Source of the DNA: a virus
Direction: 5' to 3' (one strand)
DNA: 57,783 bases
Virus record (IMG/VR): IMGVR_UViG_3300043427_004567
Span: 1 to 57,783 of that record
Below the pieces are notes generated by a model. The model was not told the DNA's origin and searched no databases. It saw only the letters and a list, made by a program, of their open reading frames with translations. Numbering within the stretch: position 1 is the stretch's first letter; every line of letters starts with the position of its first letter. This document shows, one piece after another, positions 2,644-49,767 of the stretch. Both the position numbers and the translations under genes were made by a program.

Positions 2644-3576
2644 TTAGACTTTTTTCCAAGAACCGTCAGTAGCAGAATTTCCTTCCCACTCAAGTAGCTG
2701 CTCGGCTGAAGATACACTGCCATTTTCATTTTCTGTCTCAATTAGTAATATGATAGACCGCATAGGTCCGGTTTTTACACCATTTGCAGAAGGTGGTGGA
2801 CCATCTGCGTTTGTTAATGAGAGTTTAGTGAATTCGGGAAACTTAAAATTTGGATAATAAACATCCGCAAGCGTTCTAGTATCTCTAACGTCAGATAAGT
2901 TTCCTGGTGGATCGATGATAGTGATTAATTGACTTTTGCTATTAACATCTTGCGCAATATCAGTAATCTTTAAATGTTGAGTACTGCCAAAACTCGTTGC
3001 TGTATAACTATATGTTTCACAAGGATAACCCGCCAAGAAGGTGATTGTGTCAGTTCCGGTATTGCTTACTAATAAATTCTTCAGCCCAAAACATATTGAA
3101 GAAGATCTAAAGTACCTGCCTACAGTAAAAGTTCCGAGTGTCCCAAGTATTTGATCTTTTACTACAGCCTGACCTGCAACAGTAACTGTGCTCGTCATTC
3201 CAGTATTTTTGTCTTTTGAGATAGTATTAGTTACTGTATAAAACCCAATAGAAATTAATCGCGCAGGATGTGAACCAGCAACAGCGCCAATTATTTCGGC
3301 TGAAGCGCCTTGCGATAATTTAATTTTGTCTACTTTGGGTATTTCTAATGTGGCAGTAAATGTTAATGTAAGCGTAGAACTTAGAGATGACTCAACAGTT
3401 AAATAATTTCCGTGATATCCTACGTCTTTTGCTCGTATAAAAACTGGGCCATCTAAAGTAGTTCCAGTAATTGCGGCAGTTCCCGTGACGCCTATCATGA
3501 TATTGCTTCGGCGGGCTGAAACAAGTCGCAACTCAGGTAAATCTCTTTTTGGGTCAAATTGTGGAGTGTAAACCAT
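2644..3576 (-). CDS. Hypothetical virion-type protein downstream of the PAAR tip
   Basis: The 310-residue product is rich in Thr, Ser, Val and Gly with repeated short beta-strand patterns, as in tail spike or fibre-associated proteins. I recognise no domain. I place the start at ATG 3576, five bases after the first base of the PAAR stop (TAATAATG), rather than the upstream TTG inside PAAR; the spacing implies coupled translation. It ends directly against the convergent oxygenase-like gene with no spacer. Being cotranscribed with the PAAR tip suggests a tail-tip or central-spike accessory role, which is inference only. Confidence 0.65.
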   Translation of the reverse strand: MVYTPQFDPKRDLPELRLVSARRSNIMIGVTGTAAITGTTLDGPVFIRAKDVGYHGNYLTVESSLSSTLTLTFTATLEIPKVDKIKLSQGASAEIIGAVAGSHPARLISIGFYTVTNTISKDKNTGMTSTVTVAGQAVVKDQILGTLGTFTVGRYFRSSSICFGLKNLLVSNTGTDTITFLAGYPCETYSYTATSFGSTQHLKITDIAQDVNSKSQLITIIDPPGNLSDVRDTRTLADVYYPNFKFPEFTKLSLTNADGPPPSANGVKTGPMRSIILLIETENENGSVSSAEQLLEWEGNSATDGSWKKV

Positions 3577-3578
3577 TA

Positions 3579-3872
3579 TTAGTTTATAAAAACTGTTGGC
3601 GAACCTTTTTGAATTTTGCCAACATGGCAAGAACTGGCGCAGTGCCGTTCAGCAGCATCTCCAACTTTAACAGCAGGTCGGTTGTTTATAAAAACATTCG
3701 ATGAGCCTTCTACTATTTTTACACTTCTCCAGAAATCACGGCCACTTGAATGACTTGTTGTTACATCATTTTGACGTGAGAGCGGCAAGCCATCAGCATA
3801 AACATCTGATGAACCAGTTTTAATAAAATCACCGCAAGATAGGCGGTCTGAAATTCTACCAGCTGCAGGCAT
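3579..3872 (-). CDS. PAAR-domain tail spike tip protein
   Basis: The 97-residue protein consists of one PAAR domain. Two repeats of the GSSDVYADG / GSSNVFINNRPAVKVGD / GSPTVFIN type are visible at about residues 20-28, 56-72 and 90-97. Candidate zinc ligands are His41, His77, Cys78, Cys82 and His83. PAAR proteins cap the beta-helical spike of contractile tails (gp5.4 in T4) and sharpen the membrane-piercing tip. The matching spike, a gp5-like protein, lies in the baseplate locus at 35150-36319. A GGAG lies 11 bases before the ATG. A GATAAATA late-type promoter lies about 50 bases upstream. Confidence 0.88.
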   Translation of the reverse strand: MPAAGRISDRLSCGDFIKTGSSDVYADGLPLSRQNDVTTSHSSGRDFWRSVKIVEGSSNVFINNRPAVKVGDAAERHCASSCHVGKIQKGSPTVFIN

Positions 3873-3919
3873 TTTAGTTAATTCTCCATTTTAATTTATA
3901 TACGACAAGTATATAATAG

Positions 3920-3927
3920 TATTTATC
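3920..3927 (-). promoter_or_regulatory. Late-type promoter variant GATAAATA
   Basis: Read on the minus strand this is GATAAATA, one base from the T4 late consensus, about 50 bases before the PAAR start. The same variant precedes three other minus-strand transcription units in the window, which makes chance less likely. A second near-match, TATAAATT, lies at 3893-3900. Confidence 0.5.
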
Positions 3928-3948
3928 TAATTTAACGGAGTGACTATT

Positions 3949-4707
3949 ATGCGCGAATTATTCATCAAGTGTGGAAAGCATGAATATGGACTTGGCGTTG
4001 TTTTAGATTCAGGAGATGATGAACATCCATGTACACTTACGTTATATGCATTCAAATATTTCATTAAGTTTATGCTACCAAGAATAGTCTGGCCCGTGCG
4101 AATTAAGCGTGATTACGTCAGGGCGAATGGCAGCGTTGCAACATATTACGATGTTTTCAATCGTGTTTTTGGTTTTGTTGTTTATGAAGAACATGTTCAT
4201 ACGTATTACGGCGCAAGAACTTATGCTTCGTTAACTGAAAAAGTTAAATTATTTTGCATTCCGTGGCGGATGACGCGAAGAGTGAGATATGATTTCTACA
4301 CCGCTGATCATGAATATTTCTGTTCAGTTAATGATTATGAGGGTTTTTTGACTGAGTATGAAGCGATAAAAGATGCTGAAAGAAAAGTCCCAAAGTTGAA
4401 AATACAATTCAATGATTTTGATGGTGAAAAGATTGTCGCTTCGTGTTACATCGAAGAAATGGAATGGCGAAATGGAGTTGGGCTTTTTAAATGGGTAGGA
4501 AGCATAACTAAACCAACCATCGTTCGCAGCATGGTATATGAATTTGACAAAGAAGCAGGCAGAACAAAAACTGATTGGAAGGGTGGAATTATTTCAGCTA
4601 GTCGCAAAATAGAAAAAGGCGATTCTGTTTTTGGAGTTTTTACAAGTATTCTGAAAAACAGTAAGATGTTTAATATTGAATCACCAAATTGCAAAATAAT
4701 AGATTAA
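3949..4707 (+). CDS. Hypothetical protein, 252 aa
   Basis: No family recognised. The product is rich in aromatic and basic residues, with stretches such as YYGARTY and CIPWRMTRRVRYDFY in the middle. There is no signal peptide. I use ATG 3949, which has ACGGAG eight bases upstream, rather than the GTG nine bases earlier that overlaps that site. It is a lone plus-strand gene between minus-strand genes and is convergent with the hydrolase gene: a TTAA palindrome at 4704-4707 provides the stop codons of both. A TATAAT at 3912-3917 could be a host-type -10 element, but no convincing -35 is seen. Confidence 0.7.
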   Translation: MRELFIKCGKHEYGLGVVLDSGDDEHPCTLTLYAFKYFIKFMLPRIVWPVRIKRDYVRANGSVATYYDVFNRVFGFVVYEEHVHTYYGARTYASLTEKVKLFCIPWRMTRRVRYDFYTADHEYFCSVNDYEGFLTEYEAIKDAERKVPKLKIQFNDFDGEKIVASCYIEEMEWRNGVGLFKWVGSITKPTIVRSMVYEFDKEAGRTKTDWKGGIISASRKIEKGDSVFGVFTSILKNSKMFNIESPNCKIID

Positions 4708-7160: not shown

Positions 7161-7367
7161 TTATGCTACTAGACGAGCTGTACCAGAAGTTGCAACAGAA
7201 AATGTAATAATAACTGTTGAAGTAGTTGGATGTGTTACGCTTTTTGGTAATATTTTTCGACCATCATGCAAAAATACATCACAAATTGGATATGAACGAA
7301 GAGAATGATTAATTGTCCAAGTTGTTGCTGCGGTGCTAGTGGAAAAATCATATGAAGTCTCAGCCAT
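7161..7367 (-). CDS. Single-module adhesin-locus protein (WTI-N-H-L beta module)
   Basis: The 68-residue protein is one copy of a beta module that recurs through this locus. Its signature is TTWTINHSLRSYP, then a central VFLHDGRKILP, then VIITFSVATSGTARL. Equivalent segments occur in the genes at 7379, 7612 (twice), 8259, 8834 (C-terminus) and 14953. No enzyme motif is visible. The likely role is a small tip or decoration subunit of tail fibres. ATG follows GGGGATAAATT, and only 11 bases separate it from the preceding gene, so it is cotranslated with it. Confidence 0.75.
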   Translation of the reverse strand: MAETSYDFSTSTAATTWTINHSLRSYPICDVFLHDGRKILPKSVTHPTTSTVIITFSVATSGTARLVA

Positions 7368-7378
7368 AATTTATCCCC

Positions 7379-7600
7379 TTAAATCACGCGAGCCACACCA
7401 GTTTGTGGGCTCGTGAAAGTAATAGTTACAGTAGCAGTTGATGTTCTAGCAACTGATGCCGGAATAATTTTAGTTTTAACACCACCAACGTCTACTAATA
7501 CGTCAACAACTGGATAACCATCAAAGCCATAGTTAATCACCCAAGTATTTGAAGCTGTTGTTTGGGTGTGTAATACTGAGTGGCCAGGTTTATAAGACAT
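7379..7600 (-). CDS. Single-module adhesin-locus protein, paralogue of its downstream neighbour
   Basis: This 73-residue protein is a single copy of the same beta module (NTWVINYGFDGYPVVDVLVD and then TVTITFTSPQTGVARVI). The His of WTINH is replaced by Tyr in this copy. A clear AAGGAG precedes the ATG, and the gene sits 11 bases after the stop of the two-module gene upstream. The run of one-, one- and two-module genes looks like recent tandem duplication. It is probably a fibre-tip or decoration subunit. Confidence 0.75.
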   Translation of the reverse strand: MSYKPGHSVLHTQTTASNTWVINYGFDGYPVVDVLVDVGGVKTKIIPASVARTSTATVTITFTSPQTGVARVI

Positions 7601-7611
7601 ATTTTAACTCC

Positions 7612-8214
7612 TTAAATAAACTTAGCAACACCAGTTTGCTGTGATGAGAATGTAATCGTTGTTCTATTCACTGTGTTATGAGTGATTGAAGCTGGCTGAA
7701 CTTCTTGATCATTAATAAACACACGAACATCTGGCTCATATCCTAAAGCATGATCAATAACCCATGTTGTTAAAGCATATGACTGGGTGTGTTCATAAGA
7801 ATAAACTGGTTTAGCATTACCCTCAGTGCTTCCAGAAACCACGAAAACAGTTCCTGTGGCTGGCGAATTTAAACTAACCTGAACAGTATTCTGATCAATG
7901 ATCTCAATTTCATTAGGGATAATAACTTTTTTCAAACTATCAAATACCTGAACTGAAACTGTGCCAGCACGTAAGTTATGTGTTACGGTCCAAGTTGATG
8001 CTGAAGAGGACTGAGTATGCACATAAGATGTGATTTCTCTTGTTAAAGGAACCCAAACAGGAAGGCCGTTTGAGAAACCAACAACAATGTAAACTACGCT
8101 ATCTTTAAAAACAACTTGTCCTAAAACCGGACTAGCTGGAAATGTCTCAATAACTTCCAGGGCCGGGTTTTGTAACTGATTTTTCTGTAAATCTGCGTGG
8201 CCATAAAATTTCAT
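7612..8214 (-). CDS. Two-module fibre-locus protein with N-terminal attachment domain
   Basis: The 200-residue product has an N-terminal domain of about 60 residues (starting MKFYGHADLQKNQLQNPALE) shared almost word for word with the gene at 8259. Two copies of the recurring beta module follow, at about 66-130 (STWTVTHNL) and 140-200 (TTWVIDHAL). The shared N-terminus probably attaches the protein to a common structure, while the modules vary. It ends with the same FSSQQTGVAKFI pattern as the single-module proteins. AAAGGAT precedes the ATG. A tail-fibre role is inferred from the module and the neighbours. Confidence 0.75.
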   Translation of the reverse strand: MKFYGHADLQKNQLQNPALEVIETFPASPVLGQVVFKDSVVYIVVGFSNGLPVWVPLTREITSYVHTQSSSASTWTVTHNLRAGTVSVQVFDSLKKVIIPNEIEIIDQNTVQVSLNSPATGTVFVVSGSTEGNAKPVYSYEHTQSYALTTWVIDHALGYEPDVRVFINDQEVQPASITHNTVNRTTITFSSQQTGVAKFI

Positions 8215-8258: not shown

Positions 8259-8672
8259 TTATTCGGTTGGTGCCCTATTACCATCAAGACTACCAGTTGC
8301 AACAATTGCTCGGCCTATCATGGCGGAAGAAAGTGTAACTGTTGCTGTTGTTTTACTTGTAAGCTCAATCTCGCTAGGAATTACCATTTTACTATCTTGA
8401 TCGTAGATCTGAATGCTAACAATGTCCGAATTAAGATTATGGGTAATGGTCCATGAAGAGGATGATTCAGCTTGAATATGGATATGTGTTTCTACATCTC
8501 GTGTTAAAGGTACCCAGATTGGATAATTTTGAACATTGACACAGATGTAAACAGTATTACCTTTGAAAATAAGAGAACCAACAACTGGATTGACTGGAAA
8601 TGATGAAATAACTTCCAGTGCTGGATTCTGGAGCTGATTCTTTTGCAGGTTTGCGTTTCCATAAAATTTCAT
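8259..8672 (-). CDS. One-module fibre-locus protein with the same N-terminal attachment domain
   Basis: Residues 1-62 closely match the N-terminus of the 7612 gene (MKFYG-A-LQKNQLQNPALEVI). One beta module follows (SSWTITHNL at about 73-81 to about 130). The C-terminus, GSLDGNRAPTE, stops where the paralogue continues into its second module, so this is a one-module sister copy. AGGA lies before the ATG. A near-consensus late promoter (AATAAATA) lies about 45 bases upstream, after the terminator of the large fibre gene. Confidence 0.75.
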   Translation of the reverse strand: MKFYGNANLQKNQLQNPALEVISSFPVNPVVGSLIFKGNTVYICVNVQNYPIWVPLTRDVETHIHIQAESSSSWTITHNLNSDIVSIQIYDQDSKMVIPSEIELTSKTTATVTLSSAMIGRAIVATGSLDGNRAPTE

Positions 8673-8833: not shown

Positions 8834-11533
8834 TTAGGCTGTAGCGATACCCATTACAACAATCTTACATGCAATAGCGGAGTTGAACACAACTGTGAGC
8901 TGTGTTGAGCTGTTGAATGTGATTGATTGTGGGATCACGACTTCGTCGCCAGCATCCACAACTGTTACGTTGCAATACTTCTGGCCAAGGCCATGGGTAA
9001 CAACGTGTGTTGTAGCTGAAGCGCCATCATAGAGATGGAACATCTTGGTTGTACCGAAGGTGTTGTCACCCTTAACTGCGAGGACTTCACCAACTGTAGC
9101 TGTTGAAGCTGTACCAACATCACCGAGGTCACCAAGCTTAACTTGACCCATGAGTGTTGAAGGAGCAACAACTGTCCAGGTGCTACCATCTTTCTGGAGG
9201 AGTGACTTATCAGCACCAGCATCAGCACCGTCAACGTTGGTAAGATCGTCGAGGGAAGCTGCGAGGCTGACAGCGCCAGAAGAAACAGAGAAGAAGTCGC
9301 TGCTGAAGCTTGCGACACCCTTAACTGTTGTTGAAGCATCAGCAACAGAAACTGTAGCTGTTGAGCCGGCTACTGCTGTGGAGATAGCGCCAGAACCCTT
9401 AACATCGAATGAACCACCAAGTGATGTGGCGGCTGAGCCGGTATCACCACCAAATGTCATTGAAGAGTTAGCAAGTTGAGCGTTATCGATACCAGCAGCT
9501 TTCACTGTAACCATACCATCAACAGCAACGGCGAAGTCATCGCTTGAGAACTTAGCGACACCGAGAGCTGCTGTTGTAGCTGTTGCTACTGTGATTACGG
9601 CTGTTGAACCTGTGACAGCAACGTCAACACCTTGAGCGGCAACACCGTCAAATGTGATTGTGCCGCCGAGTGACACTGAACCTGCTGTGCCTTGATCGCC
9701 AGCTAAGCTAACAGCGCTGTTAACAAGCTTAGCATTCTCAATTGAGCCGGCCAACATGGCGTTGGTGACACCGAGAGGAGCGATAGCAAGTTGTGCAGCT
9801 GATGATGTTGAAGCAGCTGAACCGTCAGTTGTCAGTAAGAGACCGCCAGCGGAGTAGAGGTCAAGACCGACTTCGTCAGTTGGGAGCTCTCTAACACCAG
9901 CACCAAGGTTGATGTCAAGAACGTTAGCGTTTTTAGACATACCAACGCCAGCGGTGATCTGACCAGCACCTGTGAACTGAACCCAGCTACCTGTACCTGG
10001 ATAGACATAACCAGTTTCTGTAGCACGATCAAACACGGCCCAACCGTCGACTGGAGCAACACCAGCATCCCATGTGTTAGCAGCTGTAGCAGTGTAGATC
10101 TTATAATCGGTTGTGTTCAAGAAACGGTCGCCTGTTGTAGCTGTTCCTGGCAGTGCGGCACCAACGCTATCAACTGGCTCTTTCCAGGAAAGACCTGAAG
10201 CAACTGAGTCAACATATGACTTGTTTGCAGCATCACCAGCACTTGTTGGAGCGGCCAAGCCTGTCACTTTCTGTGTACCACCGAATGAAAGATCACCGGT
10301 CATGGTATCGCCAGAAACGTTGACATATGTAGCATCAACGAGAGCTGTGATATCGCCTGTTGTAACGGCTGTTGAAGTTGTTACACGGCCATAGGCGTCA
10401 ACAGCAACTTTGCTGAATGCAGCTGAACCAGAGAATGGAACAACAGCGAGGTCAACAAGAATGTCACCAGCGTCTGTACCGGAACCGTTTGTAACAACAA
10501 CGCGATCGGCTGTACCAGCAACATCTTTACCGACCATGGTGCCATCAGCCTTACGGATCATGATGCCATCGTCAGATGTGTTGGCTAAGCTAACAAGTGT
10601 TGCGTCAAGTGACAGGGTGATGTTAGCGCTAACGCCTGTGCCTGAGCTAACAGCAATACCGTCAGAACCGACAACTTCGCGTGTTACAGCTGAACCGTCG
10701 CCTGTACGGACGATAATACCTGTTGTTGACAGACCTTCAAGAGCTGCGAGGTCATTTGCGAGGGCGATTGTTGGGTTACCAGCAACACCGTCAGCATTGG
10801 TGATTGACATGCCAGTTGGGACAACGATTTCACGTGAAGCAAATGTGTCAGCGCCTGTTTGAACGAGAATACCTGTTGATGTTTTATCAGCAAGGGCATC
10901 AAGACCAGCATCATACTTCTGCACGCCTGAATCTGAACCGATTGTGACATCTGTCCAGGTTGAACCGACTAACTTCATTAATGAACCGTCGGCGGCGCCT
11001 GTGAGATCAACATCACCGAGTTGGTCGAGTGAAACTTGACCAGCTAAACCAGCAACAGTAACATCTTCCCACTTACCTGATGTGCTGCTGTACTGGAGTA
11101 AGCCTTTGTCGGCAAGACCAGCAACATCAACGTCATCAAGCTCTGAGAGTTGGTTGTTTGAGTTTGAGTAGATAGCTAACTTGTTGATAGCATCGGTAAA
11201 GCTTGTTGGTGCGCCACCGAGGTCGCTGAATGTGCTGGTGAAACCACCTGCAACGAACGTACCTGTTGATGAAATGCCGGCGCCGAGTGATGTTTCGACA
11301 GCGTCGATTTCAGTCTGAACACCAGTAAGGATTGAAGCATTTGCAACTTTGATCCATGCTGAATCTGTTGAATAATAGAAGCCAGCACCTTCACCACCAG
11401 CACCTGTTTGGTAGATGAAGCGACCAGCTGCGCCTACGGCGAGACCATCAACTGTTGATGTTGTCTCAAGGAACGCGTTCTGAACGCGGCCTGTACCGTC
11501 GGCATTAAAAAGTAAATGACCATTAATTTTCAT
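8834..11533 (-). CDS. Long tail fibre / abundant surface fibre protein, 899 aa
   Basis: The protein is fibre-like. Its short N-terminus MKINGHLLFNADGTGRVQNA resembles the attachment part of the neighbours. It has repeats of the LGDVDLTGAADGSLMK type near both ends, and the classic tail-fibre segment GDAANKSYVDSVASGL in the middle. The last 65 residues form the recurring beta module (VVTHGLGQKYCNV). I use ATG 11533 with GGAG six bases upstream instead of the TTG four codons earlier. Base composition and codon choice are much more GC-rich and uniform than in neighbouring genes and resemble the capsid gene, which suggests high expression. It has its own late promoter, a structured leader and a strong terminator. 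Confidence 0.82.
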   Translation of the reverse strand: MKINGHLLFNADGTGRVQNAFLETTSTVDGLAVGAAGRFIYQTGAGGEGAGFYYSTDSAWIKVANASILTGVQTEIDAVETSLGAGISSTGTFVAGGFTSTFSDLGGAPTSFTDAINKLAIYSNSNNQLSELDDVDVAGLADKGLLQYSSTSGKWEDVTVAGLAGQVSLDQLGDVDLTGAADGSLMKLVGSTWTDVTIGSDSGVQKYDAGLDALADKTSTGILVQTGADTFASREIVVPTGMSITNADGVAGNPTIALANDLAALEGLSTTGIIVRTGDGSAVTREVVGSDGIAVSSGTGVSANITLSLDATLVSLANTSDDGIMIRKADGTMVGKDVAGTADRVVVTNGSGTDAGDILVDLAVVPFSGSAAFSKVAVDAYGRVTTSTAVTTGDITALVDATYVNVSGDTMTGDLSFGGTQKVTGLAAPTSAGDAANKSYVDSVASGLSWKEPVDSVGAALPGTATTGDRFLNTTDYKIYTATAANTWDAGVAPVDGWAVFDRATETGYVYPGTGSWVQFTGAGQITAGVGMSKNANVLDINLGAGVRELPTDEVGLDLYSAGGLLLTTDGSAASTSSAAQLAIAPLGVTNAMLAGSIENAKLVNSAVSLAGDQGTAGSVSLGGTITFDGVAAQGVDVAVTGSTAVITVATATTAALGVAKFSSDDFAVAVDGMVTVKAAGIDNAQLANSSMTFGGDTGSAATSLGGSFDVKGSGAISTAVAGSTATVSVADASTTVKGVASFSSDFFSVSSGAVSLAASLDDLTNVDGADAGADKSLLQKDGSTWTVVAPSTLMGQVKLGDLGDVGTASTATVGEVLAVKGDNTFGTTKMFHLYDGASATTHVVTHGLGQKYCNVTVVDAGDEVVIPQSITFNSSTQLTVVFNSAIACKIVVMGIATA

Positions 11534-11602
11534 ACTTTTCTCCAATGGTTAATTAAAGATTTAATACAGTAAAATGCATTTTATGTATTATGGTATTATG
11601 CT

Positions 11603-11758: not shown

Positions 11759-11992
11759 TTATATTTGGCGGCGTGTTGCAGTAGTTAAAGCTTTAATTGC
11801 TGAATTAAAGGCAACAGGCTCAACTGCCAAATTTCCTAAGTCATAGTCTTCAATAATTTTTTCGTCAACAGAATCAAACACGAAAGTGCCTTTATTTCCG
11901 TTCTTTTCTATTCTGTTTAAGTTAAAACCAAGAACTTTAAGAGTTGCGGCTAGCACGATATCTTGTGTATTTACAGTTCTAATTTTTGTCAT
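11759..11992 (-). CDS. Small phage protein resembling DUF5659
   Basis: The 77-residue product shows the pattern of small phage proteins placed in DUF5659: an N-terminal stretch with LAATLKVLGFNLNRIEK, a beta strand GTFVFDS, and a short C-terminal helix ending KALTTATRRQI. The function of that family is unknown. GAGGT precedes the ATG. It sits alone between the fibre genes, with a short repeat array upstream. The family assignment is from memory of the pattern and is moderate. Confidence 0.6.
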   Translation of the reverse strand: MTKIRTVNTQDIVLAATLKVLGFNLNRIEKNGNKGTFVFDSVDEKIIEDYDLGNLAVEPVAFNSAIKALTTATRRQI

Positions 11993-12059
11993 TTCAGTAC
12001 CTCAGGACCTTTAAATTAAATTTCTTTGGTTTAAGATTCTTCTATTATTTACTTTTTTT

Positions 12060-12092
12060 CAATCTTTTTTCAATCTTTTTTCAATCTTTTTC
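12060..12092. repeat. Three tandem 11-bp repeats with phased A/T tracts
   Basis: CAATCTTTTTT is repeated at 12060, 12071 and 12082 (last base differs). Six-base A tracts spaced 11 bases apart are expected to bend DNA. The array lies between two minus-strand genes, downstream of a late-like TATAAGTA (12093-12100, minus strand). Confidence 0.7.
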
Positions 12093-12111
12093 TACTTATA
12101 ATCAACTAAAA

Positions 12112-12124
12112 GTGTGTAACACAC
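12112..12124. repeat. Short palindrome GTGTGT-A-ACACAC
   Basis: This 13-base inverted repeat starts six bases beyond the stop of the 12130 gene. It is too short and too lacking in a T run to call a terminator; a protein-binding site is possible. Confidence 0.35.
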
Positions 12125-12129
12125 ATGTA

Positions 12130-12729
12130 TTACCCGGTTGTTTCTACGAAAAACTGTAGACGATTCTGCAAGTTCATACCCAATTTCTTGATAATTGCTG
12201 TTGAGCTGCTTGCAGTACCAACAAATCTTGGCGTATTATAATTTTCACGCTGTTGGCGATAATATACTTTGCCAGTTGGATCTGTATAAGCAAAAATAAT
12301 ATCACTGCCGGCTTTGTTAAAATCACGCAAATCATCAACTGCTATTCTGCATGAGGTGGTACCAGTCACAGATAATAACTGATACGCTGCTGGACCGCTG
12401 TTGTAGAACCAAATATTTGATGCTTGGGCTGTTTGAAAAGCCACAATCGCCGAGCCATTTTGGTCAAAGGCGCCAGAACATGTAATAAGATTTGCGATCG
12501 TGCCAGTTGTAGGATAAGTAAAAGCCACAGTTGATGTATTGGTTTTGCGCATTTTAACTTTACCACCATCAATGAATGTTGTCCAATATTGATATTCACG
12601 TCCCTGCGATAGATCGCTGATATTGATCGGTCCAGAGCACACATGTGAAGTAGCAGAATATGCTTGATTCTCAGGCGGTTTGAAAGTTGATACTCGCGGT
12701 GTTGGAGTGATAGCGTTATTTGGAATCAT
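12130..12729 (-). CDS. Putative receptor-contact or tail-fibre accessory protein, 199 aa
   Basis: ATG 12729 is preceded by GGGGGAGAG, which clearly beats the upstream TTG at 12792 that lies inside the preceding gene. The protein is beta-rich. A conserved-looking C-terminal segment, CRIAVDDLRDFNKAGSDIIF, is followed by AYTDPTGKVYYRQQRENY. I have the impression of this DLRD-SDIIFAYT-YRQQRE pattern from phage tail proteins but cannot name a family. It starts one base after the preceding fibre-locus gene ends, so it belongs to the same operon. Host-surface recognition is inferred from context only. Confidence 0.6.
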   Translation of the reverse strand: MIPNNAITPTPRVSTFKPPENQAYSATSHVCSGPINISDLSQGREYQYWTTFIDGGKVKMRKTNTSTVAFTYPTTGTIANLITCSGAFDQNGSAIVAFQTAQASNIWFYNSGPAAYQLLSVTGTTSCRIAVDDLRDFNKAGSDIIFAYTDPTGKVYYRQQRENYNTPRFVGTASSSTAIIKKLGMNLQNRLQFFVETTG

Positions 12730-12730
12730 T

Positions 12731-13651
12731 TTAATCTCTCCCCCACGTTTGGCGGAATGTAATTGAAAAACTATTAGTTGCTGTTTTTGCAATTGGATTA
12801 TTCAAAATAATTTGGTACTTACCTATTCCAGAATTTAGGTAAAATCCTTTGATACCACCGCCGACATTGCCATCTTGTGGTGCGACGACAAAATTTACGT
12901 CACGATAGTATGTGCCTGTTGAATACGTTAAGGGAATTGCTGATTGAACACCACCCCCGTTAAGTGGCACAAAAGTACCAGATGCAACCGTGGCGGTGAT
13001 ATTAGTTAGTGAGGCATCTGTTTGCAAACCATTTAGGAAACAAGCATTTCCGGCAGTATATGAATAACCTGCATTTCCGGCTGCCAATAATCTTGATGTG
13101 TAGGTAAGTGTACTGCCAAGAATTGTAACTGTGCCAGTAGTATCAATCAATGATGGAAAAATCTGCAATCGATAGAAAATAGTAAGTTCGTCTTCAGCGG
13201 CCACTGGGATAGAAGTTGGTGATCCAAACTCATCAGTGATAAGTGCGCGTGACACGAGCTGTCCAGGGTCTGGTACTAAACCAAATCCACCCACACCAAC
13301 TTCAGTAATATTGCCAACAGCTGAACCAACTGGAAATGTCGCGTTGAATGTCCAATTGCCAGAGTAATCACCGCTTGTGCCGTCGTTGAAATAACTTGAT
13401 GATAATTGATTGCCACTATTATCAGCCCGTGCTAAAAAATTTGCAAGTTGTGTGTCATTTGGCGTAACGGGTGTTGTGCCTGTACCAACTTCTATGAAGG
13501 TAAAAACATATCCATAACCAATGGAACCAGACGTGCCGAAGGCGTCAAGACCTTGGTTAAGAATCATATTCTCAAACCAAGGTGTCTCATTTACGTGGCC
13601 ATCTTTGTTCTTGACCGCGATCTTATAATATCCCTTCAGACGTCCTTGCAT
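12731..13651 (-). CDS. Fibre/baseplate-locus structural protein, paralogue of the next gene
   Basis: The 306-residue product begins with a basic beta segment (GYYKIAVKNKDGHVNETPWFENMILNQGLD in sense, residues about 7-36). It continues with a VGTGT motif, a central NITEVGVGG, and SRALITDEFGSP. The same ordered motifs occur in the 297-residue neighbour at 13653, so the two arose by duplication. The N-terminal N-x-IL-x-QGLD plus VGTGT layout is common in minor tail proteins that sit between baseplate and fibres. GAGGAT precedes the ATG, and only one base separates the two paralogues. Confidence 0.7.
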   Translation of the reverse strand: MQGRLKGYYKIAVKNKDGHVNETPWFENMILNQGLDAFGTSGSIGYGYVFTFIEVGTGTTPVTPNDTQLANFLARADNSGNQLSSSYFNDGTSGDYSGNWTFNATFPVGSAVGNITEVGVGGFGLVPDPGQLVSRALITDEFGSPTSIPVAAEDELTIFYRLQIFPSLIDTTGTVTILGSTLTYTSRLLAAGNAGYSYTAGNACFLNGLQTDASLTNITATVASGTFVPLNGGGVQSAIPLTYSTGTYYRDVNFVVAPQDGNVGGGIKGFYLNSGIGKYQIILNNPIAKTATNSFSITFRQTWGRD

Positions 13652-13652
13652 A

Positions 13653-14546
13653 TTATCCTCGTGCCCATGAAAGCTTCACATCAAGTGTAAGCGTTTGTAT
13701 ATTTGTTTTTGGAATCGCGGGGGAGAATGTCATTTGGTAACGATTTAAGCCACCGTAAAGTTGCAAACCGCCAATACCGCCAGCAGCATTCCACATAGAT
13801 GGACTAGCAGTAATTGTGCCAACCAACTCACTTGTACCGGCAACATAAGGAGTTACAGAAAATGCATAAGCATAAGAATCTAAGACTGTACCAGACATAT
13901 CATTATCAGTAATAGGCGCAATTGCTGCATCATTTTCGTATGAGATACAAACAAAATTGTATTGGGCACTATAGAATTGACATGCATAATTAGCCCGTAA
14001 CAATGCTGATTCATAATTATATGTGCTTGTGCCAATTGTGACTGTCCCTGTACTTGTTGCAGTATCAGGAGTGATTGTTAAACGATAATATACGGTCAAT
14101 TGATCCATTGATGTTACGGCAATTGAAACCGGATTTGAATATTGGTCAAGAATTAAGGCACGTGAAAATAGAATTGGTCCGTTAGCACCAATACCAACTT
14201 CTGTGATATTTCCAACTACAGCACCTTGTGCAAATGCAGCATAAATGGTATGTTTTCCTGCATAACTTTCACCCGAACCACCATTTTCATAAGAGCCATA
14301 AGATTCATTAGTTTCTGTGGCAATTGGTGTTTCAAGAGATGTTTGAGATACGTTTGGCGCAGATGTGCCTGTGCCAACTTGCATATATCCACCGTAAGCC
14401 CCGTCCAAAAATGTACTACCAACATTTTCACCAATCAAATCCAATCCTTGGTCAAGGATAAGATTAGGAATCCAATCTGTTTCTTTAGTTGTGCCATCAG
14501 GAGACTTTACGACGAATTTGTACTCTCCTTTCAAAAAATTTTTCAT
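13653..14546 (-). CDS. Fibre/baseplate-locus structural protein, paralogue of the previous gene
   Basis: The 297-residue product shares the motif order of the 12731 gene: GEYKFVVKSPDG, NLILDQGLD, VGTGT, VVGNITEVGIG, FSRALILDQYSNPVSI, LTVYYRLTITP and a closing SW-R. Similarity is strongest in the first 170 residues, and the C-terminal thirds diverge, as expected if the distal part contacts different partners. It starts inside the stop of the short repeat protein before it (ATGA), with GGAG upstream. A role as a minor tail or fibre-linker protein is inferred. Confidence 0.7.
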   Translation of the reverse strand: MKNFLKGEYKFVVKSPDGTTKETDWIPNLILDQGLDLIGENVGSTFLDGAYGGYMQVGTGTSAPNVSQTSLETPIATETNESYGSYENGGSGESYAGKHTIYAAFAQGAVVGNITEVGIGANGPILFSRALILDQYSNPVSIAVTSMDQLTVYYRLTITPDTATSTGTVTIGTSTYNYESALLRANYACQFYSAQYNFVCISYENDAAIAPITDNDMSGTVLDSYAYAFSVTPYVAGTSELVGTITASPSMWNAAGGIGGLQLYGGLNRYQMTFSPAIPKTNIQTLTLDVKLSWARG

Positions 14547-14920
14547 GTTAAATCTCCAGAAATAGGAATAGCGTTGTTGAAGTCTAGTAGTTCTATATCG
14601 CCCTGATTATAAGTGATATATGCGATAGTAGTTTCTAATGTGCCCGTTGTTGGTTCTGCATTGTTAAAACTGATAAGCTCTTCAGTACCTGTATACGAAA
14701 TGTATGAAATACTAGTTTCTAATGTGCCAGTTGTGGGTTCTGCATTATTGAATGTCATCAACTCTTCTGTTCCCGTGTATGACAAATATGTAATACTAGT
14801 TTCTAATGTGCCAGTTGTTGGTTCTGCATTGCTAAAACTGATATTGTCAGTCATTGTTGGTAAAAGAAATGATGACACTATCGGCGGATTTTGAACTGTT
14901 AGATTATCAGTTTCTGCCAA
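14543..14920 (-). CDS. 28-residue-repeat protein without a credible start; probably the -1 frame extension of the gene upstream
   Basis: The open frame encodes three near-identical 28-residue units (for example ISFSNAEPTTGTLETSITYL) plus a degenerate fourth. The only starts are TTG 14920 and an internal ATG at codon 23, and neither has a Shine-Dalgarno sequence, unlike nearly all genes in this locus. The frame stays open upstream to 14956, where it meets the T9 run that ends the 14953 gene. A -1 slip on that run would produce one 286-residue protein: an N-terminal domain, a beta module, a Pro-rich linker and the repeats. The stop overlaps the next ATG by four bases. The alternatives are a base-call error in the homopolymer or non-canonical TTG initiation. 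Confidence 0.6.
   Translation of the reverse strand: MAETDNLTVQNPPIVSSFLLPTMTDNISFSNAEPTTGTLETSITYLSYTGTEELMTFNNAEPTTGTLETSISYISYTGTEELISFNNAEPTTGTLETTIAYITYNQGDIELLDFNNAIPISGDLT
14630..14850. repeat. 84-bp tandem repeat inside the repeat protein
   Basis: The phrase TTTCTAATGTGCC recurs at 14632, 14716 and 14800, an exact 84-base (28-codon) period. Similarity continues through GGTTCTGCATT. It is an in-frame coding repeat, so copy number could vary without breaking the frame. Confidence 0.85.
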
Positions 14921-14952
14921 TGGATATAGTGCTGAAGTAAAATACGAACTAG

Positions 14953-15402
14953 TTAAAAAAAAACAGCCGGTGGAGGTGGTTCAGGCGTCGTTGAAGGGAA
15001 TAATATAAGAACTGCGCGACCATCTTGAGCACCAGCAAATGAAATTTGCACAGTATCTACGTCAACAACTGTTACTTTATCTGGAAAAATAATTGCGCCT
15101 TCTACGTCATAAACAGTTACTTGTACATTTCGCGTGTTTTGCAGATGTGCTATTGTCCAAACTGCCTCAGCAATTGGTTTTTCATATGCAAAGCCTTTAC
15201 AATTGCTAATTGAAAGAACTGATAGGCCAGTTATAACACCACCAGATTTACCTAGAACTTCGCCTTCTGCAATATCAACGAATTCTAATTGACGCGGACC
15301 AGGGCCGCGGCGGACTGGTATTGTTTCTTGAGATGGATTTGTTGTTACGTACGGCCGGCGAGGAAGTTCTTGCTGGACAAAATTTTCGAATTCGGCAGCC
15401 AT
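14953..15402 (-). CDS. Fibre-locus protein with beta module and Pro-rich C-terminal linker; candidate frameshift donor
   Basis: The 149-residue product has an N-terminal basic/Pro-rich region (about 1-35), a small middle domain, and one copy of the locus beta module (about 78-140: EAVWTIAHLQNTRNVQVTVY and then VQISFAGAQDGRAVLILF). The end is a linker-like STTPEPPPPAVFF. The last sense codons are GTT TTT TTT followed by TAA, so the stop lies in a run of nine T. A -1 slip there leads straight into the open frame of the repeat protein. The start is well supported (GAGGAG) and overlaps the preceding stop by one base (TAATG). Confidence 0.75.
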   Translation of the reverse strand: MAAEFENFVQQELPRRPYVTTNPSQETIPVRRGPGPRQLEFVDIAEGEVLGKSGGVITGLSVLSISNCKGFAYEKPIAEAVWTIAHLQNTRNVQVTVYDVEGAIIFPDKVTVVDVDTVQISFAGAQDGRAVLILFPSTTPEPPPPAVFF

Positions 15403-47247: not shown

Positions 47248-47313
47248 TGCATCTCCTTTAATATGAATATGAATATTAGCCAGAAAGCGTATTTTTGGAT
47301 TACTCAGGAAATC

Positions 47314-47321
47314 AATAAATA
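47314..47321 (+). promoter_or_regulatory. Possible late promoter AATAAATA for the tape-measure gene
   Basis: One mismatch from TATAAATA, 41 bases before ATG 47362, in a divergent intergenic region that also holds a minus-strand GATAAATA. Confidence 0.4.
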
Positions 47322-47333
47322 TCCGGCATATAG

Positions 47334-47341
47334 TATTTATC
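47334..47341 (-). promoter_or_regulatory. Late-type promoter variant GATAAATA
   Basis: GATAAATA on the minus strand, about 87 bases before the gp26-like ATG. It is the fourth occurrence of the same variant at a minus-strand promoter position in the window. Confidence 0.5.
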
Positions 47342-47361
47342 ATTTTTATAGGTTGTCCAGA

Positions 47362-49767
47362 ATGTCTCTTACTCCAGAAGATATCCAAAAATTATCAACA
47401 GCTATTGCAGGTGCTGTTGGTAAGGCCATGTCAACGGCCTTAACTGGAGATAGAAATATAAGATCAAAAGAAGAAAAAACTTCTGAGAAATCTGGTAAAA
47501 AACAAGACTTTTCTTCGCCTAAACAACTTGAAGAATATATTAAAAAGCAAGCAAAAGCTTCATTTTCAGGCATTGCTGATAATATTGATACCATCATGGA
47601 TGGTTTTCAAAAAATCTATGAGCAAGAAATATTTTCTAACAAAGAGTTAGACAAAGCGCTTAAGAACACTATTAAATCAATGACATCAATGGAAGACATG
47701 ATGGGTTCTTCTGGTGCGGCGCTTTCTAAGCTTGCAGAAGATGGCGATGGTATTGGTGAAGTCTTTAAAATTTTGAAAAAGCGAGTAGAAGGAGCAGCCA
47801 CACTGCAAAAAGAACTTGCTGATGCGCAGGCGAGCGGCACAGAATTATCAGGTTGGTGGTTGATGGAACTTGGTAAAGAAATGGGAGTTACTACTGAAAG
47901 ATTAGAAGAATTAAAATCTAAAGGAGTAGTTACATTACAAGAAGAGCTGATAAGAATAGGTGGAGAATCTAAAAATGTTGTCAAACGGCTCGCCGAGAAT
48001 GCAGTGTCACACAAAAGAGTTATTGAAGGCAATAAGATCTTAACAAAGGGCACTGAGATTTTAGGTAAACAGTTTGGCTTAACAAATTTGAGCGTAGCAG
48101 CATTTGCAGCCTTAGGTGTAACATCATTCAGCAAAATGTATTCGGCAGTAACAGCTGGTGTAAATGCTCAACTGCCACTCAATAATATTCTGAGCATCAC
48201 CACCGATTCTTTAACAAAGTTTGGTGTGCCAATAGAAGAATTAACACGAGCTGTTTCTGAAAGTAGAAGACAGATCGCGCAGACTGATTATTCAACGTTT
48301 ATACAAGGCCTAGACGCATCATCTGATAGGTTGAGAAATGAAGGTGTCGCAGCTAAAGATGCGTTAGAGCTCGCAACTGCGTTTAGACAGAATGCGCAAT
48401 CTGCCGGAATATCTGCTCGCGACACTGACAGGATGAATGCGGCAGTCCAAAATCAAGAAAAAGAATTTATTAAACTGAATCGCGTCACCGGCATGACAAA
48501 ACAAGAATATATTGAAATGTCAAGGGCGGCGGCAGAAAATGTAGATTTACAAAAATTAAATTTAGGAGTTGGATCAAAAGAGCGTGCTGGCAGAGTTGAA
48601 GCCTTTAGAGCGCAAAGTGTATTGTTACAAACCACGTATGGTTTGTCAAAAGCGCAAGCAGATGCAACACAGTCGGCTCTTTTGTCAGTCCAAAAAGATA
48701 AAGTAACTTCCAGATTAGAACAAGCTGCTAAAGTTCAGCAGATGGCGTCAATCATGGGGATGGGCGATGCGGGTGCCGAGGCCGCAGATATTATCAGATT
48801 AGGAAGAAGGGCAACTGAAGAGCAAAAAACTAAATTAGCAACATTCATGGGCACGATGAATGAATCTGCGCAGTCAATGGCAATGGGAGGATTGGCCGAA
48901 GAAAACGTTGTTAACGTGTTAGAAGATGGGATGGGCGGGGGCACTAAACAATTATATGATGCTGGCGTAGCATTGCAATCTGCAACTGGCAAAATGTTAA
49001 CAGATGCAGAAATAGCTGCAGCATTACAGAGAGATAGCACTGATCAAACAACTAATAAACTTATAGAAGCTTTTACATTTGTGAAGAATGCATTTGAAAG
49101 TCCACTAGTGCAAATGGCAATTTCAGTGGCTGGTTTATTGGCTAGTAGTGCATCATTAATTGGCGCAGCTTCAGCGTTGACTGCTGCTGCAGGCGCGTTA
49201 GGCGGGGCAGGAATAGCAAGTAAGGCTGGTGGATTAATTGGCGGAGCTGGAAAATTAGCTGGTGCGGCTGGTGGTGTTATGGCAGCGGGTGCAGCTGGGT
49301 ACGCAGTTGGTGAAGGAATTAATCAACTAGTAGAATCTACAACTGGCGCATCAATTGGATCTCATCTATACGATTTTTTCAGTGGTGATAGTGAAGCTGA
49401 GAAAAATTTATTAGCGCCAACTCCAATTCCAGCAAGAGTTGGGACAGCACCGGTGGCGGGTATGCCAACCGAGACAGTTGGAGGCGCAACCGTAGCCGCT
49501 CCAACATTAGCTAAAGCTCCTGTGGTTGCAACATCAACAGAGATAAATACAGTCAATCAACAGGGACTTAACGAAAAATTAGTTAATCAACAAGCTGAAA
49601 TGATTAGCATTTTACGTGCTAGTGAAGAACTATCTAGAGAAATGGTAGAAATTCTAAAAGTGAGCAATGATCATTTAAAAGTCACCGCGAGTAAACGCAC
49701 AACTGAAATGTTTGAATCAAGAACAACTTTATCAAAAACAGAATTTGTTAGCTCAGCGCTAAGATAA
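47362..49767 (+). CDS. Tail tape measure protein, 801 aa
   Basis: The N-terminal half is long helical sequence rich in Lys, Glu, Ala and Met, with coiled-coil periodicity. A Gly/Ala-rich hydrophobic segment at about 585-660 (LIGAASALTAAAGALGGAG and so on) is typical of tape measures, which enter the membrane during DNA ejection. The C-terminus is helical and polar. T4 gp29, the tape measure, is about 590 residues, so the predicted tail is somewhat longer. I choose ATG 47362 (MSLTPEDIQKL), because the in-frame upstream ATG region overlaps the promoter elements. It sits beside the gp26-like gene and just before the portal, unlike T4. Confidence 0.8.
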   Translation: MSLTPEDIQKLSTAIAGAVGKAMSTALTGDRNIRSKEEKTSEKSGKKQDFSSPKQLEEYIKKQAKASFSGIADNIDTIMDGFQKIYEQEIFSNKELDKALKNTIKSMTSMEDMMGSSGAALSKLAEDGDGIGEVFKILKKRVEGAATLQKELADAQASGTELSGWWLMELGKEMGVTTERLEELKSKGVVTLQEELIRIGGESKNVVKRLAENAVSHKRVIEGNKILTKGTEILGKQFGLTNLSVAAFAALGVTSFSKMYSAVTAGVNAQLPLNNILSITTDSLTKFGVPIEELTRAVSESRRQIAQTDYSTFIQGLDASSDRLRNEGVAAKDALELATAFRQNAQSAGISARDTDRMNAAVQNQEKEFIKLNRVTGMTKQEYIEMSRAAAENVDLQKLNLGVGSKERAGRVEAFRAQSVLLQTTYGLSKAQADATQSALLSVQKDKVTSRLEQAAKVQQMASIMGMGDAGAEAADIIRLGRRATEEQKTKLATFMGTMNESAQSMAMGGLAEENVVNVLEDGMGGGTKQLYDAGVALQSATGKMLTDAEIAAALQRDSTDQTTNKLIEAFTFVKNAFESPLVQMAISVAGLLASSASLIGAASALTAAAGALGGAGIASKAGGLIGGAGKLAGAAGGVMAAGAAGYAVGEGINQLVESTTGASIGSHLYDFFSGDSEAEKNLLAPTPIPARVGTAPVAGMPTETVGGATVAAPTLAKAPVVATSTEINTVNQQGLNEKLVNQQAEMISILRASEELSREMVEILKVSNDHLKVTASKRTTEMFESRTTLSKTEFVSSALR

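Follow-up and report, generated by a model that had tools for sequence, protein, structure and literature searches.

Frameshifting appends Ig-like or FN3-like domains to structural proteins in T3 10B, Lactobacillus phage A2, SPP1 gp17.1* and TpeX of the lactococcal 936 phages, and it has already been proposed that such mobile domains land randomly out of frame and that selection for recoding follows (PMC5009743, PMC6316719, PMC6669499). These frameshift-appended domains are the closest precedents for the locus analysed here, in which a run of nine T's (T9) joins a small tail-protein gene, hereafter the donor, to a -1 reading frame encoding a repeat module. The locus is part of a stretch of 57,783 bases of virus DNA, a record of IMG/VR, the whole of which is referred to as the window. 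As in the phages named above, a structural protein has its own stop, a minority of its copies would gain a C-terminal domain from another frame, and non-homologous recombination would have brought the two together; the window differs in combining a PaBG-type tail protein with a module of the LUZ19 gp39/Prado type, in having a bare T9 with no stimulator, and in that its long form is predicted. An earlier, sequence-only reading of this DNA had suggested that a programmed short/long pair of adhesins would be new for this type of locus; frameshift-made short/long pairs of virion proteins are already known in phages (PMC5009743, PMC6316719, PMC6669499).

Three other systems share parts of this arrangement. 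Bacterial genes that use transcriptional slippage (IS elements with A9, Thermus dnaX with A9, Citrobacter tssM1 with A11) likewise have a homopolymer where the frames meet, one added base leading into a longer frame, and two forms from one gene (PMC1088944, PMC4256274); these cases are demonstrated or conserved, whereas the window represents a single phage lineage known from its DNA sequence. In lambda stf (orf401/orf314) a fibre gene is also split by a frameshift, and its homonucleotide runs often acquire indels on which selection can act (PMC2762979), but the split in laboratory lambda is a loss, with no long form. The fibre cassette itself is shared with Pradovirus and phiKMV-like phages (LUZ19 gp39-gp40-gp41), in which the module, phrog_4176 and phrog_4950-type genes stand in the same order and the module adjoins phrog_4176 upstream. 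There the module either has its own start (LUZ19 gp39, of 152 aa, seems to be a stand-alone copy) or continues in frame from an N-terminal fibre part, whereas in the window it lies out of frame behind the donor and phrog_4176 is duplicated.

Frameshifts of phrog_4176 in the isolates Mx1 and FBPa18 were considered as a comparable case and set aside, being single-base losses outside homopolymers. Phrog_4176/gp40 is split or truncated in two Pseudomonas phage isolates, L217 (OR594342.1, at about 2441-2498) and L219 (ON857933.1, at about 2834), by single-base losses outside homopolymers that represent either sequencing errors or real mutations.

The T9 run and the two reading frames

The junction proved to be exactly as first described. 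The minus strand reads ...CCA CCG GCT GTT TTT TTT TAA CTA G..., its nine T's corresponding to A9 at 14955-14963, and the 0-frame stop of the 149-aa ORF is located at 14953-14955. The reported opening of the -1 frame was likewise found: TTA ACT AGT TCG... stays open to a TGA at 14543-14545, and 149 plus 137 residues give 286 aa. The junction ...AVFF-LTSSYFTSALYP... would result from insertion of a single U or from a ribosomal shift of -1. The elements concerned, all on the minus strand, are the following.

14953-15402, minus strand: donor ORF, 149 aa, a small tail protein of the PaBG/NCTB type with a phrog_21918-like domain
14956-14994, minus strand: donor extension, absent from L003, the nearest divergent relative
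14955-14963, minus strand: T9 run (U9 in the mRNA), U UUU UUU heptamer followed by UAA; candidate slippage site
14543-14956, minus strand: -1 frame continuation, 137 codons; its TGA forms part of the 4 nt (ATGA) shared with the next gene
14546-14944, minus strand: tail-fibre C-terminal module; its TS-x-x-YP motif (TSALYP) is at 14921-14938 and is followed by about four repeats, each 28-29 aa long
14918-14920, minus strand: TTG, the upstream-most in-frame start of the repeat ORF, after the TSALYP motif and with no Shine-Dalgarno sequence

Bacterial coding regions avoid A/T runs from length nine (9A/9T; PMC1088944), and in the coding sequence of the window A/T runs of at least 8 were depleted, with 2 observed against 8.1 +/- 2.3 from synonymous shuffles (a first-order Markov expectation was dropped as it overstated the depletion). 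No A/T run of at least 9 other than T9 occurs in the 57,783 bases, and a single run of this length is nothing exceptional, as synonymous-codon shuffles give 1.5 +/- 1.0. What is unusual is the location of T9 within the frame overlap, not its presence: the two frames overlap over 28 nt with T9 inside, for which the expectation is about 20/57,783, or 3.5e-4, per randomly placed run, at a site picked post hoc. A terminator reading of T9 was rejected, there being no stem before the run (weak fold, -2.6 kcal/mol).

Donor, repeat module and inserted cassette

The donor gene lies directly downstream of the gene for a large tail-assembly protein and starts with an ATG that is preceded by a GAGGAG Shine-Dalgarno sequence and overlaps the upstream stop, an overlap found in the window, L003, PaBG and NCTB. 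Similarity of the protein is full-length (81% to L003, 42% to PaBG), and its architecture comprises an N-terminal helix and beta region, a C-terminal beta-sandwich (residues ~66-136) and a 13-aa Pro-rich extension, STTPEPPPPAVFF, which begins exactly where the L003 protein ends with ...RAVLIMFP. An AF2 model of the donor (pLDDT 79) matched no PDB structure below E 0.001. Proteins of the donor family are complete at ~135-143 aa in 20 of 21 loci, where they have neither the module nor such an extension, the twenty-first locus being an identical twin of the window; since the homologues are complete at this length, a 149-aa short form is plausible by itself. The Pro-rich linker had been taken as a sign that a domain should follow. 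As the PaBG homologue has a Pro-rich tail with nothing behind it, such an end alone announces no domain.

A profile of the module (HMM built from 69 independent loci, window left out) matched the -1 ORF with E = 4.6e-19 over positions 3-125 of 125, beginning at 14944, and this was the sole match in 790 six-frame fragments. The window copy fits the family pattern of TS-x-x-YP, about four 28-aa repeats and an SG-x-L end (TSALYP ... SGDLT), with its repeats spaced 28, 28 and 29 aa; the T and Y of the motif are almost invariant across module copies and TS-x-x-YP is kept in nearly all. There is no decay in the -1 frame, the repeat copies differing mostly synonymously (dN/dS ~0.2-0.6), and the 3' end of the module overlaps the start of the phrog_4176 gene (ATGA, 14543/14546) as in Prado-type phages. 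The AF2 model of the module (mean pLDDT 76) is all beta and matched nothing in PDB or BFVD below E 0.001; PDB sequence searches likewise gave nothing significant. The family is widespread, standing upstream of phrog_4176 in phiKMV/Prado-type and many uncultured phages, and in most of 79 further phrog_4176 loci the gene directly upstream has the module at its end. On sequence evidence, the downstream ORF is a real coding sequence and represents a tail-fibre module.

The module is followed on the same strand by genes that complete a fibre cassette:

13653-14546, minus strand: tail fibre protein 1 (phrog_4176, E 2.9e-53), with a GGAG Shine-Dalgarno sequence
12731-13651, minus strand: tail fibre protein 2, a paralogue (phrog_4176, E 3.3e-55)
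12130-12732, minus strand: third fibre-cassette protein (phrog_4950, E 3.7e-30)
12004-14994, minus strand: the fibre cassette of ~3 kb, comprising the extension, T9, the module, two phrog_4176 genes and one phrog_4950 gene; absent in L003 between the donor and the homologue of the gene at 11992

BLASTN comparison with L003 placed the breakpoints at 15011 and 12003, and the ORF map showed that the L003 gene next to the donor is the homologue of the window gene at 11992. Because the L003 donor stops at this point and the 11992 homologue comes next, the ~3 kb were taken to be an inserted cassette, the gene order of which is that of the fibre locus of Pradovirus and phiKMV-like phages. The capsid, portal, baseplate wedge and SbcC-like genes of the window match known families, which we take to be T4-type; with a T4-like capsid, portal and baseplate, the phage is therefore likely to use a host-type RNA polymerase. 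From the lack of the module in the relatives of the donor, it follows that an accessory fibre module was captured out of frame.

The two phrog_4176 copies of the window form a tandem duplicate (12731-14546) and are 37% identical, while the Prado-type cassettes examined have one copy; a further contig (L043) has two modules and two phrog_4176 copies. Elsewhere in the window, an 834-aa ORF at 47263-49767 had no PHROG match and none in the phage collection.

Start codons, proposed slippage and alternative explanations

The earlier remark that the repeat ORF has poor starts was borne out. In frame there are only TTG at 14920 (no Shine-Dalgarno sequence), ATG at 14854 (none) and ATG at 14758 (a weak GAAGAG, mid-repeat), while most neighbouring genes have a Shine-Dalgarno sequence of the GGAG/GAGG type. 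The TTG is located 8 residues past the start of the HMM match and 33 nt past the donor stop, and its use would cut off the motif. Among 126 distinct module copies (the comparison copies being full ones not cut by a contig end), the window copy alone has no in-frame ATG, GTG or TTG before the motif; in the others a start precedes it, the module being part of a longer fibre protein or a gene by itself, and stand-alone modules have their own ATG 7-50 residues ahead of the motif. With no start before the motif, an intact module can therefore be made only via the donor start, either by a one-base correction at T9 or through a real one-base sequence difference. Since the fibre module elsewhere is never without a start upstream of the motif, a 286-aa fused product of donor and module is strongly implied.

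What looked like a second out-of-frame junction, in L064, was rejected, the module there starting from an ATG of its own, 7 residues ahead of the motif. In this locus (3501-3975) a 675-aa ORF precedes the module in a different frame, and its 3' end overlaps the module ATG; the related-looking L083 and L108 have a similar upstream part joined to the module in one frame, a natural split/fusion of the junction.

The explanation that we favour, out-of-frame capture of the cassette together with slippage at T9 to give a minority long form, has in our judgement an even chance of being correct. A phiKMV/Prado-type fibre cassette would have been inserted directly behind the PaBG-type tail-protein gene of a T4-like phage, and its first piece, a fibre repeat module without its own start, would have landed in the -1 frame behind T9. 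Most ribosomes would then terminate at UAA, giving the 149-aa short form, and a minority 286-aa product would arise when RNA polymerase adds one U in the run (U10 in the mRNA) or, by a less likely route, through a -1 ribosomal slip on U UUU UUU ahead of UAA, with both routes leading to an identical product joined at AVFF-LTSSYFTSALYP. A few copies of the tail protein would thereby carry the repeat module, beside the two separate fibre proteins encoded downstream. T9 is a plausible site for such polymerase or ribosome slippage; that slippage takes place, its efficiency and the occurrence of both forms in virions are what we infer.

A -1 frameshift heptamer of the X_XXY_YYZ type is present in the right phase (U_UUU_UUU, then UAA), but in E. 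coli this sequence is much less shift-prone than A_AAA_AAG (PMC5009743). No Shine-Dalgarno stimulator was found upstream of the run, and downstream there was no stem and, in line with the earlier reading, no pseudoknot, the folds not going beyond shuffles (z -0.45, -1.37, +1.20). The sequence features expected for transcriptional slippage are present, T9 lying inside the 28-nt overlap and one added U opening the long frame. E. coli RNA polymerase, which slips on runs of at least seven T's, rescues a -1 reporter by insertion at ~5% on T7, ~10% on T8 and more on longer runs (PMC6260861), and slippage on the A11 of tssM1 reaches 20-25% (PMC4256274). Given the lack of a stimulator and the weak heptamer, against the known slippage of E. 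coli RNA polymerase on T runs, transcriptional slippage is favoured and is at least as likely as ribosomal frameshifting, the earlier view having been that the two are equally likely. Phage domains that landed out of frame by non-homologous recombination can gain expression by frameshifting (PMC5009743).

The description of the shift as programmed found no support in the comparison with relatives, in that neither the T run nor the -1 relation occurs in any of the 20 divergent donor loci or the 125 other module copies, and no stimulator accompanies them in the window. The arrangement is kept in the identical twin only and, being missing from all those loci and copies, has no evolutionary conservation. 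One donor locus (L012), in which the -1 frame is open past the donor stop, was discarded as a shared frameshift, as this frame looks non-coding and runs into the next gene, which has its own ATG.

An indel, natural or technical, would account for the same sequence because one more base gives an in-frame fusion. The strongest rival, possible if on the unlikely side, is a natural indel in a hypermutable tract, where 10 or 7 T's would be the in-frame ancestral or alternative state and T9 a switched-off or inactivated one (by phase variation, or by loss of a fibre part that the phage can do without). A module without its own start fits an in-frame fusion; moreover, lambda side-tail-fibre (stf) mutants are mostly one-base indels in homonucleotide runs, a polymorphism proposed to be adaptive (PMC2762979), and in phage CPt10 a poly-A frameshift was confirmed in a methyltransferase gene (PMC2853527). 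The undecayed -1 frame speaks against it, as does the twin contig, IMGVR_UViG_3300047510_004033 from another metagenome record, which matches window bases 1-28,653 with 0 differences over 28.6 kb, T9 included, though it may share reads with the window; no other run-length variant was found in IMG/VR. A natural indel would in any case merge into the slippage explanation, because T9 would still leak by slippage.

That the indel arose in sequencing or assembly, the true run being T10 (or T7) and the gene one ordinary 286-aa ORF, we regard as distinctly unlikely. Homopolymers are the commonest place of such errors, and shared reads would deprive the twin of its independence; yet the identical contig from a second metagenome record carries T9, which makes a random assembly error unlikely, and no broken frames were seen in other long ORFs of the window (that of 3006 aa included) or at its other A/T runs of 7-8. 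It is more improbable still that the repeat ORF is a separate gene, begun independently or by termination-reinitiation, either at TTG 14920 or at one of the ATGs within it. Stand-alone modules do exist (LUZ19 gp39, L057, L064, L069) and the TTG follows closely on the donor stop, but it comes after a motif that nearly all copies keep and has no Shine-Dalgarno sequence, ATG 14854 likewise has none, ATG 14758 falls in mid-repeat, and the window copy is unique among the 126 in missing a pre-motif start. The module is hardly a dead remnant, an unexpressed leftover beside downstream fibre genes that alone matter, for although it is absent in the relatives of the donor and accessory modules are often dispensable, it has 137 stop-free codons, a synonymous excess in its repeats and the ATGA overlap with the next fibre gene seen in relatives.

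Possible consequences and further donor-type domains

If slippage at T9 does occur, the locus would be a snapshot of the gain of an accessory adhesin domain, in which a mobile fibre module landed out of frame and a homopolymer rescues a minority form. The tail adhesins of a T4-like phage would then join the structural proteins diversified by recoding, and mixed virions would be predicted from one genome. We tentatively suggest, as an idea that is more likely wrong than right, that a DNA phage could use polymerase slippage, on a homopolymer where two domains join, to set the ratio of short to long tail adhesin; every infection would then produce virions with mixed fibres, while DNA slippage in that run would tune or switch the ratio between generations. 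Even if the junction reflects an indel only, the analysis defines a mobile fibre module common to phiKMV/Prado-type, T4-like and uncultured phages, the start codon of which was lost in the window copy.

The beta-sandwich of the donor occurs in at least 7 copies in the window, within 7161-8214, 8259-8672, 8834-11545 (at the C-terminus) and 14953-15402. Two of these are free-standing single-domain genes of ~68 and 73 aa (7161-7367 and 7379-7600), each with its own Shine-Dalgarno sequence, and the gene at 7612-8214 has two donor-type beta-sandwich domains.
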